DNA from: Acidimicrobiia bacterium
Lineage (GTDB): Bacteria > Actinomycetota > Acidimicrobiia > Spongiisociales > UBA5794
NCBI GenBank assembly: GCA_026985095.1
Contig: JALSQW010000056.1
Location: forward strand, 71,144 to 135,143
Reading direction: 5' to 3'
Length of the DNA: 64,000 nucleotides
The position numbers and the translations under genes were made by a program. The notes beneath the pieces are model-generated. The model was given only the letters and a program-made list of their open reading frames with translations. It did not search any database and was not told where the DNA came from. Positions 2,630-54,697 of this stretch are shown here, piece by piece; positions within the stretch are counted from its first letter, which is position 1, and each line of letters opens with the position of its first letter.

Positions 2630-3468
2630 CGGATCATCTGCTCGATGGGGAGGACGAGGATCGCCGAGGCGCCGGCTGCTTCGAGCTCGGGGAGCACCGT
2701 CCACATCTCGTCCGCGTCGACGACCGAATGGACGGCGACCATCCCGTCGTGGGCGAGGGGGACGACGGTCGGAGCGTCGGCGCCGGGGATGATCTGCTCG
2801 ATGGCGTCGACGGCGGTCGCCGGTGCGTTCATCAGCACGTAGCGCTTCCTCCGGGCGGTGACGACGGCACGCACCATCGTCGCCAGCGGCGTACGTTCCC
2901 CGTCGGCGGACGAGATGAGCGCAGCCTGGGATTCGAGGATGGTCGCCACCGGCCGGAGGCCGTTCACCATCAGGGTGCTTCCGCTCGAGACGAGGTCGAC
3001 GATCGCGTCGGCGACGTCGAGCTTGGGGGCGACCTCCACCGAGCCGCGGAGGGGGATCGTGATGATCGGGATGTCCTTGTCGGCGAAGAACCCGGTCACG
3101 GTACGGGGGTGGGAGGTGGCCACACGCAGGTCCGCGAAGTCCTCGAGCGACTCGACCGGGGACGTCTCTTCCACAGCGGCGGTGAGGCGGCAGCGTCCGA
3201 ACCCGAGTTCGACGACGACGTCGGGGGCGAGCCCGGACTCGGCGACGAGGTCGAGTCCGGTGATCCCGAATTGGGCGACGTCGTCGTGGACGAGCTCGGG
3301 GATGTCGTCGGCGCGAACGAACAGGACCTCTACGGGCATGTTGCGGACGGGGACCGACAGGGAGCGGTCGGACGTCTCGAACACCAGCCCGGCCTGGCGG
3401 AGGAGGGCGACGGAGGGATCGGCGAGGCGGCCCTTGTTGGGGACGGCGATCCGAGTCCGGCCGCTCAT
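2626..3468 (-). CDS. hisG: ATP phosphoribosyltransferase, long form
   Basis: A 280-residue HisG, the committed step joining ATP and PRPP. The N-terminus MSGRTRIAVPNKGRL is typical, and the SGSTLMVNGL segment corresponds to the PRPP-binding loop. About 70 C-terminal residues (VLMNAPATAVDAIEQIIPG onward) match the regulatory HisG_C domain, so this is the self-sufficient long form that is feedback-inhibited by histidine and needs no HisZ. The start was chosen at the ATG overlapping the stop of the upstream TrpR-like gene (ATGA). Confidence 0.95.
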   Translation of the reverse strand: MSGRTRIAVPNKGRLADPSVALLRQAGLVFETSDRSLSVPVRNMPVEVLFVRADDIPELVHDDVAQFGITGLDLVAESGLAPDVVVELGFGRCRLTAAVEETSPVESLEDFADLRVATSHPRTVTGFFADKDIPIITIPLRGSVEVAPKLDVADAIVDLVSSGSTLMVNGLRPVATILESQAALISSADGERTPLATMVRAVVTARRKRYVLMNAPATAVDAIEQIIPGADAPTVVPLAHDGMVAVHSVVDADEMWTVLPELEAAGASAILVLPIEQMIR

Positions 3469-4565: not shown

Positions 4566-4580
4566 GCGCTCCGGCGCTCA
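4563..4580. terminator. Hairpin spanning both convergent stop codons
   Basis: TGAGCGC-TCCG-GCGCTCA is a perfect 7-bp inverted repeat. Its left end is the TGA stop of hisA and its right end the TGA stop (minus strand) of the AAA ATPase gene. There is no T-run, so it may be a weak bidirectional or Rho-assisted terminator. Confidence 0.4.
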
Positions 4581-6572
4581 CGCCCCCTCGGAACGGTCTC
4601 GAAGGGCGCGCAGCGCATCGGCGATATCACTGCCGGAGACGGCGATCGACTCGGGATCGCGCCGCAGTGCCTGGAGGGCAGCCTCTCGCAGCAGGCCGGC
4701 GAGCTCCGCGAACGACAGCCCCTCGGTATCGGCGACCACACGGTCGAGGTCGATGTCTTCGGCGAAGGGCACGTCGCTGATCGAGAAGAACGCCGACCTC
4801 GCTTCGGCCCCGGGGAGACCGAGCCGGAGATGCACCTCGAGTCGGCCCGGGCGGAGAAGCGCCGGATCGACCAGATCGCGGCGGTTGGTGGCGCCGATGA
4901 CGAACACGTCACCCCGGTCGGCGACCCCGTCCATCTCCGTCAGCAGCGCGGCCACGACCGAATCGGTCACGGTGTTGGTCGAGTTGCCACGCACCGGAGC
5001 GAGGGCATCGATCTCGTCGAAGAACAAGATGGCCGGTGCCACCGCCTTCGCCCGGGCGAACACCTCGCGGACGGCGCGCTCGGACTCGCCCACCCATTTG
5101 TCGAGGAGCTCCGCGCCCTTGACCGGGAAGAACGCCGCTCCGGACTCGTGTGCCAAGGCTCGAACCACGTAGGTCTTGCCGGTACCGGGCGGCCCCCACA
5201 GCAGGAGGCCCTTGGGCGGCTCGATGCCGAGGCGTCGGAAACGCCTGGGATCGGTCATCTGCCAGATCACCGTCTCGGTCAGGCGTTGCTTGATGGTGTC
5301 GAGGTTCGCCACCCGATCGAACCCGTACGAGGGCATCTCCCCGAGCGACGTCGTGCCCAACGACGGCGGCGTGCCGTCGACCGCCCGCTCCAGGAGCTCC
5401 TGGGTGATCGGTGCCCCCGACGTCGCCACCAGCGCCGTCGCCTCGAGCACCGCCGCCATGATGTCGGCGCCGGAGAACCCGGCGGTGCGGGCCGACAGCC
5501 GGTCGAAGTCCAGGTTCCGCTGCGGCACCTGGGCGAGAGCCGCCTCGAAGAGGAGCGCTCGGCGTGCGGTGTCCGGCGGGGGGATCACAAGCCGCCGGGG
5601 AAGAAGGGGCGACGACGAGATCGCCGCGTTGAGGCGAGTCGCCGACGACACCCCCAGGACGCAGGCGATCCTGGGCCGATCCGCGACCGCATCGAGGAAC
5701 CAACGGAAGATCGCACCGGCCTGCGTCTCGAACATCCCGTCGCTGCCTGCGACCGAATCGACGTGGTCGAGGTAGATGATCGCCGGCGGCGGGGTCTCCT
5801 TGACCGAACGCTCCAGGAGTGTGAGGAGCCGATCGGGCTTGAACACCATGTCGAGCGGCACCTCGTGGACGGCGGCGCCGGCATCCCGAGCGGCGGCATC
5901 GACGAGCTCGGACCGTCCGCAACCGGCTGGACCTTCGACGATCACGCCCGCGACCTCGGGCAGCCCCCAGGTGGCGGGAAGCCGTCGAGCCGACGTCAAC
6001 AGGGAGAACCATCCGGTCAGGATCTCCCGCTCGGTTTCCAGTCCGGCCAGGAGCGCCTCCGCCGTCGTCGGGGCCTCCCCCGGCGGCGACGCGACATGGG
6101 TCACCGTCGCCGGTGGGTTCCGTCCCGCTTCGTGGACGATGGTCCCCGGACCGACGATCCCCGCCGGGGCCGGCTCCACCTCGGCGACGGTCAGCTCCGT
6201 CTCGGTGTCGTCGTCGGCGCCGTACGCGCCCTTGACGACCAGCCGGTCGCCGATCGTGACCGGACGTCCCTGCAGGGCACGGGTGAGGTGGCGGGCATCG
6301 AGCGGGCTCGTCGCTCCTCCCAGGACGACCCGTTGAGCCCGCGGCAGGATGGCCCGCCGCACGTCGACCGACTCGCCGACATCGAGGCCGGCGTTGATCA
6401 GCGTCCGCGGCCCGGCCAGCAGCGCGTTGGGGGACGGCACGTCGCCGGGAGCCACGACCGCATGCGTGTCTCCCAACGCGACGATCCCTCCCCCCGGGAG
6501 ACCCATGGCCACCAGCAAGGTGGCGTCCGCTCTGGCCGTCGGGTCCGTTCCCCGCTTGATGATGAACCGCAT
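4578..6572 (-). CDS. Cdc48/VAT-like tandem AAA+ ATPase with degenerate first ATPase domain
   Basis: A 664-residue protein resembling bacterial Cdc48-like ATPases, presumably a protein unfoldase or remodelling machine; substrates are unknown. Residues about 1-160 look like the Cdc48 N-domain. The first AAA domain has GPAGCGRS (214-221) in place of GxxxxGK[ST] and ends its Walker B in LDH instead of DE, so it has probably lost catalysis. The second domain is intact: Walker A GPPGTGKT (460-467), pore loop KWVG (492-495), Walker B ILFFDE (515-520), sensor GATNRRD and arginine finger LLRPGR. A TACCCT box 6 nt before the ATG suggests a leaderless transcript. It is convergent with hisA. Confidence 0.85.
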   Translation of the reverse strand: MRFIIKRGTDPTARADATLLVAMGLPGGGIVALGDTHAVVAPGDVPSPNALLAGPRTLINAGLDVGESVDVRRAILPRAQRVVLGGATSPLDARHLTRALQGRPVTIGDRLVVKGAYGADDDTETELTVAEVEPAPAGIVGPGTIVHEAGRNPPATVTHVASPPGEAPTTAEALLAGLETEREILTGWFSLLTSARRLPATWGLPEVAGVIVEGPAGCGRSELVDAAARDAGAAVHEVPLDMVFKPDRLLTLLERSVKETPPPAIIYLDHVDSVAGSDGMFETQAGAIFRWFLDAVADRPRIACVLGVSSATRLNAAISSSPLLPRRLVIPPPDTARRALLFEAALAQVPQRNLDFDRLSARTAGFSGADIMAAVLEATALVATSGAPITQELLERAVDGTPPSLGTTSLGEMPSYGFDRVANLDTIKQRLTETVIWQMTDPRRFRRLGIEPPKGLLLWGPPGTGKTYVVRALAHESGAAFFPVKGAELLDKWVGESERAVREVFARAKAVAPAILFFDEIDALAPVRGNSTNTVTDSVVAALLTEMDGVADRGDVFVIGATNRRDLVDPALLRPGRLEVHLRLGLPGAEARSAFFSISDVPFAEDIDLDRVVADTEGLSFAELAGLLREAALQALRRDPESIAVSGSDIADALRALRDRSEGA

Positions 6573-6607: not shown

Positions 6608-8245
6608 TCAGCTCGCCGCGGCCAACCGAGCCACCGGCGATGCCGGCATCGCGATCGGTCGGGTGCTCTCGATGATCTCGACACCGCTACGGTCGAGCCA
6701 ACGCCACATCAGGTCGGCTTCGGCCGCAGCGGATACGGTAGCGGGCACCTCGTCGACCTCGCCGGGGCGGTACTCGGGGAGCAGCGGTGCCGAGCCGCGG
6801 GCGCTCCATGCGGCCACGAACCGGCCGTCATCGACGACGATGCCGTCGCCGGCGGCGTCCTCGGCCCAGAGCCGTCCCGCCCCGGTCAACGCGCTCCAGG
6901 CCCGCCGCCGCTCCAACGCCCGGGCGAGGGCCCGATGGCGGTCCCGCACGTCGGCGGCCTCCTCGAAGCGTTGCATCCGGGCCAGCTTCGTCATCCGTTC
7001 CCGCAAGGGGGCCAGGAGGAGATCGGGTTCCTCGGTCACGCCGCGTCGCACGACGGCCACGACGGCCGCGTACTCGTCCTCGGTGATCGTCCCGTCACAC
7101 GGGCAGACGGCGACCCCGACCTGGGCGAAGCTGCATGCGGCGCTGCGGCGGGTGCCGGCACCCCGGCAGCGCCGGATCGGCGTGGCATCCCACAGTGCGA
7201 ACATCACCTGCTCGGCGGCCCGTCTCGAGCGGAACGGGCCCAGGTACGGGCCGTCGCCCCGACGAAGGGTCCTGACGATCGACAGGCGGGGGAACCGTTC
7301 GGAGGTGAGCTTCAGCCAATGGGTGGCTCGAGGAGGTCGAGATCGTCGGTTGTACCGAGGTCGATGGGCGGCGATGAGCCGTAGCTCGGTGATCTCGGCT
7401 TCGAGTTCGGTCTCGCACACGACATGATCGATGCGTTCGAGGTCGCGCAGCATCTGCGCGATGCTGCGCCGCCTGTCCCCGTAGAAGTACGAGCGGACCC
7501 GTGTCCGCAGGTCCTTGGCCTTGCCGACGTAGATCACGGTGCCGTCCGGGTCGACGAACTGGTACACGCCCGCTCGGCGCGGGAGCCCCTCGGTGAGCGC
7601 CAGCTTCGCGTAGGCGGCCGCGCCCCGCGCGGTCGGAAGCCGGAGCAGATCGTCCAGGTGGGTGACGCCGATCGAACCGGCTCTCGCCAGGAGCTCCCAG
7701 AACACGTGGGCGGTGGCGATCGCGTCGTCGAGGGCGCGGTGGGTGGGAGGGTGAGGAGCGCGGAAATGCGCCGAGAGCGTCCCGAGCTTCAGGTTCCTGA
7801 CCTCGCCACGCACGAGCCGTCGCGCCAGCGCCAGGGTGTCGACCGTCGGGTTGGGAAGGCGGCCGTAGCCGAGTCGTCGGGCCGCGGCCTGCAGGAACGA
7901 CATGTCGAACCGCACGTTGTGGCCGACGATGACGGCATCGCCGACGAACTCGAGGAACGAGGGCAACGCCTCGGCGATACGAGGGGCGTCGACGACCATC
8001 GCATGGGTGATGCCGGTGAGGACCGTGATGAAGGGAGGGATCTCGACGCCGGGGTCGACCAGGGTCTGGAACCGACCGACCTCCTCGCCGCCGACGAACT
8101 TGACCGCACCGATCTCGGTGATCTCGCACGAGGCCGCCGAACCGCCCGTGGTCTCCAGATCGAGCACACAGAACGGAACCTCCTGGAGCGCCGCCCCCAT
8201 GTCCTCGAAGCTCCGTTGCGCCACCGTCACCGTCTCACTCCGCAT
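6608..8245 (-). CDS. DEDD exonuclease fused to GIY-YIG endonuclease (epsilon/Cho-like)
   Basis: A 545-residue fusion. The N-terminal DnaQ-like exonuclease has D29 and E31 (VLDLETTG), D114 (HNVRFDMSFL), H169 and D173 (HRALDDA), i.e. a full DEDDh set. The GIY-YIG domain follows at about 223-300 (GVY 226-228, YVG 239-241), like the N-terminal half of UvrC or E. coli Cho. The C-terminal part has a cysteine-rich stretch and an RMQRFEEAADVRDRHRAL segment resembling a UVR motif. The fusion is a known actinobacterial family, probably acting in DNA repair; exact substrates are not established here. A consensus LexA box lies 50 bp upstream, pointing to SOS control. Confidence 0.88.
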   Translation of the reverse strand: MRSETVTVAQRSFEDMGAALQEVPFCVLDLETTGGSAASCEITEIGAVKFVGGEEVGRFQTLVDPGVEIPPFITVLTGITHAMVVDAPRIAEALPSFLEFVGDAVIVGHNVRFDMSFLQAAARRLGYGRLPNPTVDTLALARRLVRGEVRNLKLGTLSAHFRAPHPPTHRALDDAIATAHVFWELLARAGSIGVTHLDDLLRLPTARGAAAYAKLALTEGLPRRAGVYQFVDPDGTVIYVGKAKDLRTRVRSYFYGDRRRSIAQMLRDLERIDHVVCETELEAEITELRLIAAHRPRYNRRSRPPRATHWLKLTSERFPRLSIVRTLRRGDGPYLGPFRSRRAAEQVMFALWDATPIRRCRGAGTRRSAACSFAQVGVAVCPCDGTITEDEYAAVVAVVRRGVTEEPDLLLAPLRERMTKLARMQRFEEAADVRDRHRALARALERRRAWSALTGAGRLWAEDAAGDGIVVDDGRFVAAWSARGSAPLLPEYRPGEVDEVPATVSAAAEADLMWRWLDRSGVEIIESTRPIAMPASPVARLAAAS

Positions 8246-8294
8246 CTGGTCGGCATCGTCGGGATCTGCCCGGCGTGCGGGCCGACACCCTAGC

Positions 8295-8310
8295 CCGAAC
8301 GTACGTTCGG
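8295..8310. promoter_or_regulatory. SOS box (LexA operator)
   Basis: CCGAACGTACGTTCGG is a perfect 16-bp palindrome containing CGAAC-N4-GTTCG, the LexA binding consensus of actinobacteria and Bacillus. It lies in the 106-bp divergent region, 50 bp upstream of the exonuclease/GIY-YIG start and 42 bp upstream of the DsbA-fold gene. Regulation of the repair gene is the likelier target. Confidence 0.8.
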
Positions 8311-8339
8311 TCCAAGGATCCGGGCAACGAGGGGGGCGC

Positions 8340-8345
8340 TACGCT
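8340..8345 (+). promoter_or_regulatory. -10 box TACGCT, leaderless type
   Basis: TACGCT is followed after 6 nt by the ATG of the DsbA-fold gene, with no Shine-Dalgarno between them. Confidence 0.5.
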
Positions 8346-8351
8346 GCGCGG

Positions 8352-8888
8352 ATGGTCTTCTCGGGACGGGTCTACTTCGATTTCCTGTCACCCGACGTGT
8401 GGCGGTTCTACCGACTCCTGACCGCAGCCGCCCGCGAGGGCGTCGAGCTGCGACTCGCGTGGCGCTCGTTCGCTCCCGAGGGCGACCGATCGGGGCGGCT
8501 CGCCCTGGCCAGCTTCGAGGCGGTGCTCGACCTGGCCCCCGACCGCCATGGCCGGTACCTCCAGGCGATCCTCGCGATGCATCATCTGGACGGGTTCGTG
8601 GTGGACGACCCCGCCACCTGGCACGAGGCCGCCAAGGCCGCGGACGTGCCGTCGGACGTGGTGGACCGGGCCGACGCGTACCTCGAAGCGGTGGACATCT
8701 CGACGGCCCAAGCCCGGGAGCTCGGTGTGTGCCGCACCCCCGCGTTGTACCGCCACGGACCGGTGCTCGAGATCGAGCTCACCCCGGCGGCCTACCACGA
8801 CCCGGCGGTCGTCCATCGCCTCGAGACGATCGACCGGGTCATCGCCGACGACGGGCTGTGGGTCCTCAGGAAGCCGGAGTTGGAGTGA
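8352..8888 (+). CDS. DsbA-fold protein, 2-hydroxychromene-2-carboxylate isomerase-like
   Basis: A 178-residue thioredoxin-fold protein of the DsbA/HCCA-isomerase superfamily. The N-terminal FSGRVYFDFLSPDVWRFY has the position of the FDFxSP motif of HCCA isomerases and FrnE-like proteins and lacks a CxxC pair, so disulfide oxidoreductase activity is unlikely. The GVCRTPAL segment supplies the conserved cis-proline. A glutathione- or mycothiol-dependent isomerase or transferase is possible; no pathway context is visible. The end overlaps the convergent TrmH gene by 23 bp. The start follows a leaderless promoter. Confidence 0.75.
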   Translation: MVFSGRVYFDFLSPDVWRFYRLLTAAAREGVELRLAWRSFAPEGDRSGRLALASFEAVLDLAPDRHGRYLQAILAMHHLDGFVVDDPATWHEAAKAADVPSDVVDRADAYLEAVDISTAQARELGVCRTPALYRHGPVLEIELTPAAYHDPAVVHRLETIDRVIADDGLWVLRKPELE

Positions 8889-44509: not shown

Positions 44510-46654
44510 TCAGGCCCCTTCGGATCCGGTGCCCGTCGCCAGCGGACAGTACGCCTTGTCGAAGTACTCGATCACCATGCGATGCGACGAGAAGCCCGCC
44601 AGGGCCGTCACGATCGCCTCCTTGGCCATCTCGACCCAGCCCTGGGGCACGCCGGCCGCGTCGCGGTCGTAGAAGCGGGGTACCACCTCGTGTTCGATGA
44701 CGTCGTAGAGCTTCGAGGCGTCGGCGGCGTCGGGAGCGTCGTCTTCGATGCCCCAACCGTTCTTGCCGTTGAACCCCTCGATCCACCACCCGTCCAGGAT
44801 GCTGACGTTGAGCCCGCCGTTGGCCGCCGACTTCATCCCCGAGGTACCGGACGCCTCCAACGGCGGACGCGGGTTGTTCAGCCACGCGTCGGCGCCCGTC
44901 ACGAGGGAATGCGCCAGCTGCATGTCGTAGTTCTCGACGAAGAAGACATGGCCGACGAACCCGTCCGTCTGGGAGATCTCGACGATCTCCTTGATCAGGC
45001 GCTGACCGTCCCGGTCGGCGGGATGGGCCTTGCCGGCGAAGATGATCTGAACCGGACGCGCCGGGTCCGTCAGGATGCGGCGGATCCGGTCCCGATCCGA
45101 GAAGACGAGCCCGGCTCGCTTGTAGGTCGCGAACCGCCGTGCGAACACGAACGTGAGCCGGTCTTCGGGGAGCTGGTCGTCCACCCAGCGGAGACGGTCG
45201 GGACTGGCGCCGTGGCGGGCGAACTCGTCCCGCAGCCGAGCCCTGATCCTGCGCAACATGAGCGCCTTCTGCGAGCGATGGACGCTCCACAGGTCCTTGG
45301 CGGGAACGTCGCGGATCGCCTCCCACCCGTCGGGGGAGCCGAGGCGCTCCGCCCAGTCGGCGCCGACCGTGCGTTCGAGCAAGCGGACGGTGTTGCGACC
45401 CAGCCAGGTCTCGGGGTGCATCCCGTTGGTGATCGCTTCGGCGGTGCCGCCGATCAAACTGCCCCACTGCTGGGTCACCACCTCGCCGTGGCGCTTCGAC
45501 ACCCCGTTGGTGATCGCCGACATGCGGATCGCCAGCGCGCCGAGGTCGAACCGGTCGGGGCCCTGCACGTGGGAGGTCGCGAGGCGATTGCGCAGGTCAC
45601 GATCCACCTCCGGCACCGTGGCCGAGAGGTACTTGTCGACGACCTCCATGTCGTACACCTCGTTGCCCGCGGCGACCGGGGTGTGCAAGGTGAACAGCGT
45701 CGACCGCTTCACCCGGTCGATCGCCGCGTCGACGTCACCGTCGGTTCGCAGCTCGCCGCCGAGGCGCTCGATGAGGCTCAACGCGGCGTGGCCTTCGTTG
45801 ACGTGCCAGACCGCAGGGGCGATCCCGAGCGCCTCCAGGATACGGACACCGCCCACCCCCAGGACCGCCTCTTGGCAGAACCGCATCTCCCGGCCTCGGA
45901 CGTACAGGATGTGGGTGATCGGACGATCGTCGGGGTCGTTCTCGGGGACGTCGGTGTCGAGGAGCAGCACCGGCACGCGGCCCACATCGAGTCGCCATGC
46001 CCCGACCGCCACCTCCCGGCCGTGCAGCTCGACCTGTACGCGAAGGGGCAGACCGGTGACCGGATCGAGGACCTCACGGATCGGGCGTCGGGTCGGCTCG
46101 ATCCAGTTGTAGGTGTGCTGCTGCCAGCCGTCGGGATCGACCGCCTGCTGGAAGTAGCCGCGCCGGTAGAACACGCCGATGCCGATGATCGGGATCCCGA
46201 GGTCCGAGGCGGTCTTCATGTGATCACCCGCCAGGATCCCGAGCCCTCCCGAATAGAACCTGAGCTTGTGATGGATGCCGTACTCCGCGCAGAGGTACGC
46301 GACCGGCTCGGTCGGTCGGCGGTCGGGGCTGCAGTTGCGGGTGTACCAGGTGTCGGCGCCCGTCAGGTACGCGTCGAACCGAGCGAGCGTGTCGGCGTAC
46401 AGGTCGCCGAAGTCGGGGTCGTCCGCCAGGGCTTCCCAGGTGCTGCCCGGCACCATGTGGAGCAGGCTCAGCGGGTTCCGGTTCCTCGCCCACTCACCCG
46501 GACTCAGCCGCGCCCACAGATCCGATGCCCCGACGTCCCACGACCACCACATGTTGTACGCCAGGTCGTAGAGCCGATGGAAGGCCCGGGGGATCGGCAG
46601 CGGGGTCTTCGGCCCCGCCGGGATCCGAGACAGCAGTGGACCGTGATCGGGCAC
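44510..46654 (-). CDS. glgP: Alpha-glucan (glycogen/maltodextrin) phosphorylase
   Basis: A 714-residue GT35 phosphorylase of the shorter TIGR02094-type family, about 100 residues less than the classical enzymes. N-terminal DLAYNMWWSWDVGASDLWARL, YLCAEYGIHHKLRFYSGGLGILAGDH, WHVNEGHAALSLIERL, FARRFATYKRAGL and the PLP-binding EASGTSGMKSAANGGLNVS are all present. It releases glucose 1-phosphate from glycogen or maltodextrin. GTG start with a GAGGA Shine-Dalgarno. No other glycogen gene is nearby. Confidence 0.92.
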   Translation of the reverse strand: MPDHGPLLSRIPAGPKTPLPIPRAFHRLYDLAYNMWWSWDVGASDLWARLSPGEWARNRNPLSLLHMVPGSTWEALADDPDFGDLYADTLARFDAYLTGADTWYTRNCSPDRRPTEPVAYLCAEYGIHHKLRFYSGGLGILAGDHMKTASDLGIPIIGIGVFYRRGYFQQAVDPDGWQQHTYNWIEPTRRPIREVLDPVTGLPLRVQVELHGREVAVGAWRLDVGRVPVLLLDTDVPENDPDDRPITHILYVRGREMRFCQEAVLGVGGVRILEALGIAPAVWHVNEGHAALSLIERLGGELRTDGDVDAAIDRVKRSTLFTLHTPVAAGNEVYDMEVVDKYLSATVPEVDRDLRNRLATSHVQGPDRFDLGALAIRMSAITNGVSKRHGEVVTQQWGSLIGGTAEAITNGMHPETWLGRNTVRLLERTVGADWAERLGSPDGWEAIRDVPAKDLWSVHRSQKALMLRRIRARLRDEFARHGASPDRLRWVDDQLPEDRLTFVFARRFATYKRAGLVFSDRDRIRRILTDPARPVQIIFAGKAHPADRDGQRLIKEIVEISQTDGFVGHVFFVENYDMQLAHSLVTGADAWLNNPRPPLEASGTSGMKSAANGGLNVSILDGWWIEGFNGKNGWGIEDDAPDAADASKLYDVIEHEVVPRFYDRDAAGVPQGWVEMAKEAIVTALAGFSSHRMVIEYFDKAYCPLATGTGSEGA

Positions 46655-53471: not shown

Positions 53472-53479
53472 CGGTGCGG

Positions 53480-53496
53480 AGGGTACCGGCTACGGT
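53480..53496. promoter_or_regulatory. Back-to-back leaderless promoters for the phosphatase and dinB
   Basis: Minus-strand TACCCT (53485-53480) ends 8 nt before the phosphatase ATG; plus-strand TACGGT (53491-53496) ends 7 nt before the dinB GTG. Both fit into the 32-bp gap and no Shine-Dalgarno is present. No LexA box is seen here. Confidence 0.5.
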
Positions 53497-53503
53497 GGTC
53501 CTC

Positions 53504-54697
53504 GTGAGCGGGTTCACCGAACACATCCTCCACGTCGACATGGACGCGTTCTTCGTCGAGGTCGAACGTCTCGACGATCCATCTCTTCGCGGCGTGCCGG
53601 TCGTTGTCGGGGGTCTCGGTCGTCGCGGTGTCGTCGCGTCCGCGAGCTACGAAGCCCGAGCCCGGGGTGTGCGTTCGGCGATGCCGATCGGTGAAGCTCG
53701 ACGGCTGTGCCCGACCGCGCGTTTCGTCGCCCCTTCCCATCGTCGCTACCGAGAGGTGTCGGGGCAGGTGTTCGAGATCCTCCGCTCGTTCTCGCCTGCG
53801 GTCGAGGGCATCTCGATCGACGAGGCCTTCCTCGATGTCGCCGGGCTGCGACTGCTGTGGCCCGACGCGGTGACCGTCGGCGCCGAGATCCGCGCCGCGG
53901 TCCGGTCCAGGATCGGGATCCCGGCATCGGTCGGATGCGCCACCACCAAGTTCATCGCCAAGTTGGCGTCGGCGAGGGCGAAACCCGACGGGCTCCTCGT
54001 CGTCGAAGCAGGCACCGAGTTGAGGTTCCTCCATCCCCTGCCGGTGACCGACCTGTGGGGTGTCGGGGCGGCCACGCAGGCCGCGCTCGCGTCGCTGGGC
54101 ATCCGCACCATCGGCGACGTGGCGAACACGCCCGTCGAGACCCTCGTGCGGACCCTGGGGTCGGCAGTGGGGACCCACCTTCACGATCTCGCCAACGGTC
54201 GGGACCCCCGGGAGGTGGGAGCGGGTCCGGGGACCCGGTCGGTGTCGGTCGAGGAGACCTTCACCGACGACATCGTGGCCCGCGACGATCTGGAACGAGA
54301 GCTCGTGCGGCTGTGCGACCGGCTCGAAGGGCGTCTCCGTCGGGCTGGGATGCGGGGCCGTACGGTCACGCTCAAGGTTCGGTTCTCGAACTTCGCTACC
54401 GTCACCCGATCGGCCACCGTGGACGGTGACGTGGGGTACCGGTCGGAACTGTGGTCGGTCGTGCGGGGCCTCCTCGACCGGGCCCGTGTCGGGGGTCGCG
54501 CCGTGCGGCTCCTCGGCGTCGGGGTGTCGGGGCTCGGGGCCGACACCGGTGCCCGGCGGCTCCGGCTCGGCGGCGAACGTGCCGACGCCGCAGCGCGGGC
54601 CGCGGCCTCGGTCAAGGAGCGCTTCGGAGAGGACGCGATCGTTCCGGCCCGCCTCGTGGAGCCCCCTCCCGACACCGAGGGCCGTCGCCTGCGCTGA
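53504..54697 (+). CDS. dinB: DNA polymerase IV (Y family)
   Basis: A 397-residue translesion polymerase. Catalytic carboxylates lie in HVDMDAFFVEVE and SIDEAFLDVAG; the steric-gate region is the FF pair of the first motif. ASVGCATTKFIAKLASARAKPDG and the helix-hairpin-helix LWGVGAATQAALASLGIRTIGD follow, then the little-finger domain. The C-terminus lacks an obvious QLxLF clamp-binding peptide. The GTG at 53504 matches the start of homology and a leaderless promoter; GTGs at 53495 and 53474 are less likely. Confidence 0.93.
   Translation: MSGFTEHILHVDMDAFFVEVERLDDPSLRGVPVVVGGLGRRGVVASASYEARARGVRSAMPIGEARRLCPTARFVAPSHRRYREVSGQVFEILRSFSPAVEGISIDEAFLDVAGLRLLWPDAVTVGAEIRAAVRSRIGIPASVGCATTKFIAKLASARAKPDGLLVVEAGTELRFLHPLPVTDLWGVGAATQAALASLGIRTIGDVANTPVETLVRTLGSAVGTHLHDLANGRDPREVGAGPGTRSVSVEETFTDDIVARDDLERELVRLCDRLEGRLRRAGMRGRTVTLKVRFSNFATVTRSATVDGDVGYRSELWSVVRGLLDRARVGGRAVRLLGVGVSGLGADTGARRLRLGGERADAAARAAASVKERFGEDAIVPARLVEPPPDTEGRRLR

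Follow-up and report, generated by a model that had tools for sequence, protein, structure and literature searches.

A conserved predicted LexA operator upstream of a fused exonuclease/GIY-YIG nuclease gene in Acidimicrobiia

When does a bacterium use a nuclease that joins a DEDDh exonuclease to a GIY-YIG domain? A gene for such a protein (545 aa, minus strand, 6608-8245) lies in the 64,000-nucleotide stretch of an Acidimicrobiia bacterium genome analysed here (assembly GCA_026985095.1, contig JALSQW010000056.1, positions 71,144 to 135,143; hereafter the window), and a palindrome upstream of it had led the first-pass annotation to tie the nuclease to the DNA damage (SOS) response. Read directly, CCGAACGTACGTTCGG is indeed a perfect 16-bp palindrome at 8295-8310 with a CGAAC-N4-GTTCG core (CGAACGTACGTTCG, 8296-8309, assigned to no strand), and it stands, as that annotation also claimed, exactly 50 bp from the ATG of the nuclease open reading frame (ORF); in-frame GTG codons a few residues inside this called ATG are possible true starts. 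The box sits between two divergent genes. By every computable test that we ran, except a strict promoter scan, it behaves as a LexA operator, most likely controlling the nuclease, and we hold with high confidence that the exonuclease/GIY-YIG gene is the one it would regulate as such.

The genome (2.93 Mb in 70 contigs, completeness 100) encodes one convincing LexA (contig C37, 4526-5167), with LexA_DNA_bind and Peptidase_S24 matches of 91 and 116 bits, so that the lack of a LexA, which the first-pass annotation had named as grounds for abandoning its proposal, is not what we find. The loose pattern CGAACN4GTTCG occurs 23 times genome-wide, against 1 occurrence of the reversed pattern; because 14 of the 23 fall inside called ORFs (two of these ORFs, in L028 and L029, being doubtful by eye), we discarded it as proof of an operator. 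Within the window, the loose form alone is likewise weak evidence because CGAAC/GTTCG words are common there (99 two-mismatch matches, versus 67.6 in shuffles), and a second loose match, CGAACCCGAGTTCG at 3198-3211, is among the 14 inside called ORFs and lacks the outer R..Y of the spacer. The stricter pattern CGAACRNNYGTTCG is found 9 times in the genome, and its reversed control 0 times. Two of these strict sites fall in the interval that separates lexA from a divergent LysM gene; the others precede recA (a perfect box), imuA', dnaE2, the fused nuclease, an HNH ORF on contig C63, a gene on contig C18 and a 716-aa ORF on contig C54. A box with one mismatch, CGAACATATGTTTG, also precedes the ATG of lexA, by about 55 bp. 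Both imuA' (NCBIfam NF058630, 71 bits, cut-off 65) and dnaE2 (NF004225, 1136 bits, cut-off 939) are identified above model cut-offs. All 9 sites are upstream of genes only if two starts are moved downstream of the automatic call: for dnaE2, the gene caller placed the box inside an over-extended frame, whereas the NCBIfam match begins at residue 2 if translation starts at a GTG 14 bp beyond the box; in the C18 gene the box directly adjoins the called ATG, so a GTG further in was taken as the start.

Palindromes of this length would suit many dimeric regulators, and one of these might read the site instead of LexA. We consider this very improbable, since the same class of sequence recurs at recA, imuA', dnaE2 and in the lexA/LysM interval, and in every measurable recA promoter of the order. 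The only other LexA_DNA_bind match in the genome, on contig C12, is weak (25.2 bits) and comes from a 159-aa ORF that resembles by eye an Lrp/AsnC regulator; we rejected it as a second LexA. The first-pass annotation had further noted that the box is absent at dinB (DNA polymerase IV; 53474-54697, plus strand, start codon uncertain), and this holds, with no site of fewer than two mismatches to CGAACRNNYGTTCG between 53000 and 53640. Elsewhere in the window a single site, at 45364, comes within one mismatch of CGAACRNNYGTTCG, and in the genome-wide site list there is no strict site near uvrC (contig C56, 216784-217263).

The same annotation had proposed scanning orthologous promoters for the palindrome, and it is here that the evidence is most extensive. 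Searching the proteins of 138 order genomes yielded 96 nuclease gene copies from 94 genomes (loci L039-L134), these being the copies with a retrievable N-terminus and upstream DNA (fragments lacking the N-terminus were excluded), and promoters were scanned from -300 to +60 relative to the aligned start. A perfect CGAACRNNYGTTCG is present in 94 of the 96 promoters and the other two differ by one mismatch, the box of one (L120) lying inside the aligned start. At up to one mismatch, the reversed pattern was found in 0/96 promoters, and the true pattern, in a 360-bp stretch further upstream, at 1 of the 91 loci long enough to be measured. As a positive control, recA in the order has a perfect box in 25/25 measurable promoters (5 of the 30 fetched were dropped, and the scan covered a somewhat longer stretch), while uvrC, located by tblastn as a negative control, has 0/27 perfect and a single one-mismatch box (3 of the 30 fetched were dropped); an earlier control based on residue patterns measured 25/30 recA loci and 9/30 uvrC loci, with 0/9 of the latter below 3 mismatches. 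Across the order, the predicted operator of the nuclease is kept about as faithfully as that of recA, and the CGAACRNNYGTTCG motif occurs in all 138 genomes. The LexA box of E. coli differs from the actinobacterial one. In a study of Streptomyces venezuelae LexA (PMC9380542), the SOS box is given as tCGAAC-N4-GNNCGa, which shares the core half-site and spacing of our site; unlike that box, the Acidimicrobiia sites of the nuclease gene nearly always keep R..Y at the two ends of the spacer.

Two genomes of the order carry two copies of the fused nuclease each (G008, loci L059 and L069; G088, loci L070 and L075), all four with a perfect box. In groups g31 and g45, only UvrC-level matches were found in all 16 sampled genomes (G026-G035, G105-G110), which suggests that two genera of the order lack the fused nuclease; box counts in these genomes are low (2-7).

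The box also overlaps what we infer to be a conserved promoter. Toward the nuclease, the window reads TTGGAC-(17)-TAGGGT, with the box filling the 17-bp spacer between a putative -35 element (8310-8315, minus strand) and a putative -10 element (8287-8292, minus strand), which begins 3 bp past the box. A TANNNT starting 0-8 nucleotides past the box is present at 86 of 94 loci of the order, 62 of them at offset 3; 200 shuffles give on average 6.2 and at most 13. Ahead of the box, the commonest letters are T (81%) at -6, T (50%) at -5 and G (49%) at -4. In this genome, recA, imuA' and dnaE2 have a like arrangement, with the box followed after 1-2 nucleotides by TANNNT. The abundance of CGAAC/GTTCG words in the window is what might suggest a chance palindrome without function, a view that the genome-wide counts of the strict motif, the perfect boxes in 94 of 96 promoters of the order and the conserved spacing to the -10 element together make extremely improbable.

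Weighing against LexA control of the nuclease are, at the locus itself, a scan of 8200-8420 for the strict sigma-70 consensus in which no promoter was detected, the weak consensus matches of TTGGAC and TAGGGT, and the closeness of a second gene, and, further out in the phylum, the promoters without a box described below. Because the strict scan was negative, the assignment of the -35 and -10 elements relies on their conservation. The second gene, on the plus strand (8352-8888), encodes a 178-aa, weakly DsbA-like protein (E 0.058), and its ATG is 42 bp from the other side of the box. That the box controls this gene, or both genes, instead of the nuclease is an explanation to which the two perfect boxes between lexA and the divergent LysM gene lend some plausibility. 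A homologue of the neighbour is present, however, at only 27 of 91 loci of the order (counting those whose upstream stretch exceeds 600 bp) and at 1 of 59 other loci of the phylum, that one at E 0.005, whereas the box is almost invariably perfect in the order. In addition, the -35/-10 pair around the box is oriented toward the nuclease, and the nearest TANNNT ahead of the neighbour's ATG (TACGCT, 8340-8345) lies 30 bp away from the box. We therefore rejected the neighbour, probably not a target and in our judgement quite improbable even as a shared one, on account of its turnover beside a conserved box, and assign the box to the nuclease. Directly downstream of the nuclease gene, after a 35-bp gap, lies a gene for a CDC48-type two-domain AAA ATPase (4578-6572, minus strand), which possibly shares an operon with the nuclease and would hence also be under the box.

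What kind of enzyme would be induced? The protein matches NCBIfam NF005907 (DEDD exonuclease domain-containing protein; 567 bits, cut-off 454), and Pfam, searched with a query that lacked residue 1, places, in the numbering of the full 545 aa, a DEDDh exonuclease domain at residues 27-182 (7700-8167, minus strand) and a GIY-YIG domain at residues 225-299 (7349-7573, minus strand). Five exonuclease residues (D29, E31, D114, H169 and D174) and seven GIY-YIG residues (G226, Y228, Y239, G241, R249, E287 and N299) are invariant in 50/50 aligned proteins, and we take their roles to be of the catalytic type. A Cys-rich (C4) region follows (C360 and C371 in 49/50, C383 in 48/50, C381 in only 35/50), and then a UVR-like stretch (UvrB/UvrC interaction motif) at residues 410-439 (6929-7018, minus strand), whose score of 21.1 bits is slightly below the Pfam cut-off of 21.5. 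The Pfam search gave no match to UvrC_RNaseH_dom, and the TIGR00194 uvrC model matches over its positions 7-231 of 574 only. The protein matches 27 sequences of solved structures, each best over a single half: PolC, DinG, DnaQ and others over the exonuclease, the rest over the UvrC N-terminal domain, and none of the 27 spans both halves; PADLOC returned exonuclease-type models only.

This architecture fits the Cho-like+Exo family, not orthodox Cho. According to PMC1564403 (Dunin-Horkawicz et al. 2006), where the family is named, it is specific to Actinobacteria and shares with our protein (as does NF005907 / PRK07883) an N-terminal DEDDh exonuclease, GIY-YIG and a Cys-rich region, as well as the missing UvrC RNase H domain; its UvrC-like UVR region would correspond to the UVR-like stretch just below cut-off in our protein. 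The first-pass annotation had likened the GIY-YIG half to E. coli Cho. This comparison stands with a qualification. Cho is a GIY-YIG relative of the UvrC N-terminus and is itself damage-inducible (PMC1839093); our protein, unlike Cho, has an exonuclease domain, and probably a UvrC-like C-terminus where Cho has a Cho-specific C-terminal domain (PMC1564403). No model of that name was among the Pfam and NCBIfam matches, a search that involved no direct comparison with E. coli Cho.

The control of UvrC-like GIY-YIG nucleases by SOS is already known, as is the protein family. In addition to Cho, PMC1839093 reports an SOS box at the Caulobacter UvrC-like GIY-YIG gene CC3518, and PMC8565304 predicts for Bacteroidetes that an exonuclease carrying a GIY-YIG domain is SOS-regulated; the latter, likened to ours by description only, is also an exonuclease with GIY-YIG under predicted LexA control. 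The account of Cho-like+Exo in PMC1564403 does not contain the word SOS, and to it we add a conserved predicted LexA operator. What appears to be new, judging from promoter sequences, is the conserved predicted SOS control of the fusion in Acidimicrobiia and other actinobacterial lineages. Our literature searches, weak on subscription journals and with the M. tuberculosis LexA chromatin immunoprecipitation targets outside their scope, found no statement on SOS control of the actinobacterial fusion, and with the same partial coverage no functional study of the fused nuclease surfaced. We take Rv2191 to be the M. tuberculosis member of the family. Where the literature found brings it together with LexA, the gene is only listed, and its name is absent from a mitomycin study of that species (PMC8151990). 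The words exonuclease, UvrC, GIY-YIG and excinuclease are all absent from the main text of PMC9380542, the presence of the gene in S. venezuelae being unchecked.

How far does the box extend beyond the order? The fused nuclease is present in 126 of 296 sampled Actinomycetota genomes (E <= 1e-60). Sixty further promoters, chosen by us over families out of 122 matches, include 31 with a perfect box and 5 with one mismatch; the reversed pattern gave 0/60 perfect and 1/60 at one mismatch, and positions further upstream 0/58 and 1/58. Members of the class outside the order account for 10/15 perfect and 2 one-mismatch boxes, leaving three (G238, G270 and G323) without even a one-mismatch box, and the rest of the phylum for 21/45 perfect and 3 one-mismatch. 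A separate set, the best 80 of 578 confirmed matches and so not an even sample, was divided into 18 Acidimicrobiia (14 by name, 4 with vaguer labels placed by the tree) and 62 Actinomycetes (by name and general taxonomy, three with vaguer labels), where Ilumatobacter and its family are presumed to be Acidimicrobiia. The 18 Acidimicrobiia, which are not independent as at least nine overlap records already counted, comprise 13 perfect, 4 one-mismatch and 1 two-mismatch promoters. Because 0 of the 62 Actinomycetes promoters among these best 80 of 578 have a perfect box, with 2 at one mismatch (both Actinomadura), LexA control of the gene is not universal in the phylum.

Four of the five Actinomadura loci among the best 80 of 578 (L249, L274, L237 and L291, not L244) have a near-box (CGAACGTGTGATCG and variants at 1-2 mismatches) located 157-230 bp before the nuclease, which may be a variant operator or the weak remnant of one. 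Among 24 genomes outside the order with at least two mismatches at the nuclease gene, 23 have the motif elsewhere (0-14 copies). In four genomes (f29) motif counts are near the control, and there the absence of the box may simply be the absence of such an SOS system.

On a tree of 70 chosen proteins, with the box scored as present if found between -220 and +45 with no more than one mismatch, the box label changes 3 times, compared with a mean of 22.1 when shuffled (0/500 as low), and 25 rows, including all 20 named Actinomycetes in the set, form one box-less side of a branch (Shimodaira-Hasegawa-like approximate likelihood ratio test, SH-aLRT, 100). The tree was made by a quick method without bootstrap, its root is not inferred and several branches are long (L213 and L214 join as such). 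Unrooted, it shows neither gain nor loss; we favour loss of the box only because other deep lineages have it. The fusion would then be an ancestral core SOS gene of Actinomycetota that escaped from LexA in a single event, close to or at the base of the class Actinomycetes, a scenario for and against which we see about equal chances. Such a loss would explain why model actinobacteria with mapped LexA regulons hide the SOS control of the fusion.

Two of the remaining strict sites concern other genes. The perfect box at C63:8944-8957 (L036:3045) lies just ahead of an 83-aa HNH-endonuclease ORF, possibly the remnant of a longer gene. That at C18:183793-183806 precedes a gene (C18:183855-184892; L022:3056-4093, plus strand) for a 346-aa coiled-coil protein in which a C-terminal motif, PHTDGRCA.VAFGCGIYAAK, recurs. 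NCBIfam, PHROGs and PADLOC give no match to this protein, and its Pfam matches are weak (E >= 0.02). Its family was found in 36 of 99 genomes of the order; of 30 promoters fetched, its own among them, 29 could be measured, with a perfect LexA box in 24, a one-mismatch box in 4 and none in 1. Judged by these promoters, it looks like an uncharacterised family under SOS control.

The box, the LexA, the shared motif, the conserved promoter geometry and the conserved active-site residues are observed, and together they lend support to the tie between the fused nuclease and the DNA damage response that the first-pass annotation had drawn. Near-universal retention of the promoter box in relatives argues that the nuclease is very probably made upon DNA damage. 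From this we infer, as the proposed parts of a mechanism, occupancy of the box, induction and enzyme action. In the undamaged cell, a LexA dimer on the box, and hence inside the 17-bp promoter spacer, would exclude RNA polymerase. Upon damage, RecA on single-stranded DNA would trigger self-cleavage of LexA, the box would be vacated, and the nuclease would be produced along with RecA, ImuA'/ImuB and DnaE2. The GIY-YIG domain might then nick 3' of a lesion and the exonuclease domain digest 3'-5' back through it; we would neither bet on nor against this order of events. Such an action was proposed earlier for the mycobacterial fusion: PMC1564403 relays the idea of an exonuclease that starts at the incision and degrades the strand through the lesion. 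The nuclease would thereby serve as an inducible second excision route alongside UvrC, itself outside LexA control.

An operator about as conserved as that of recA points to when this little-studied, widespread nuclease is used. If the scenario of an ancestral core SOS gene is true, the fused nuclease, with SOS-controlled Cho and the predicted Bacteroidetes protein, would represent a damage-induced second excision pathway recurring across phyla, while UvrC, at least in this order, would remain outside LexA control. LexA regulons from the class Actinomycetes may not represent the whole phylum.
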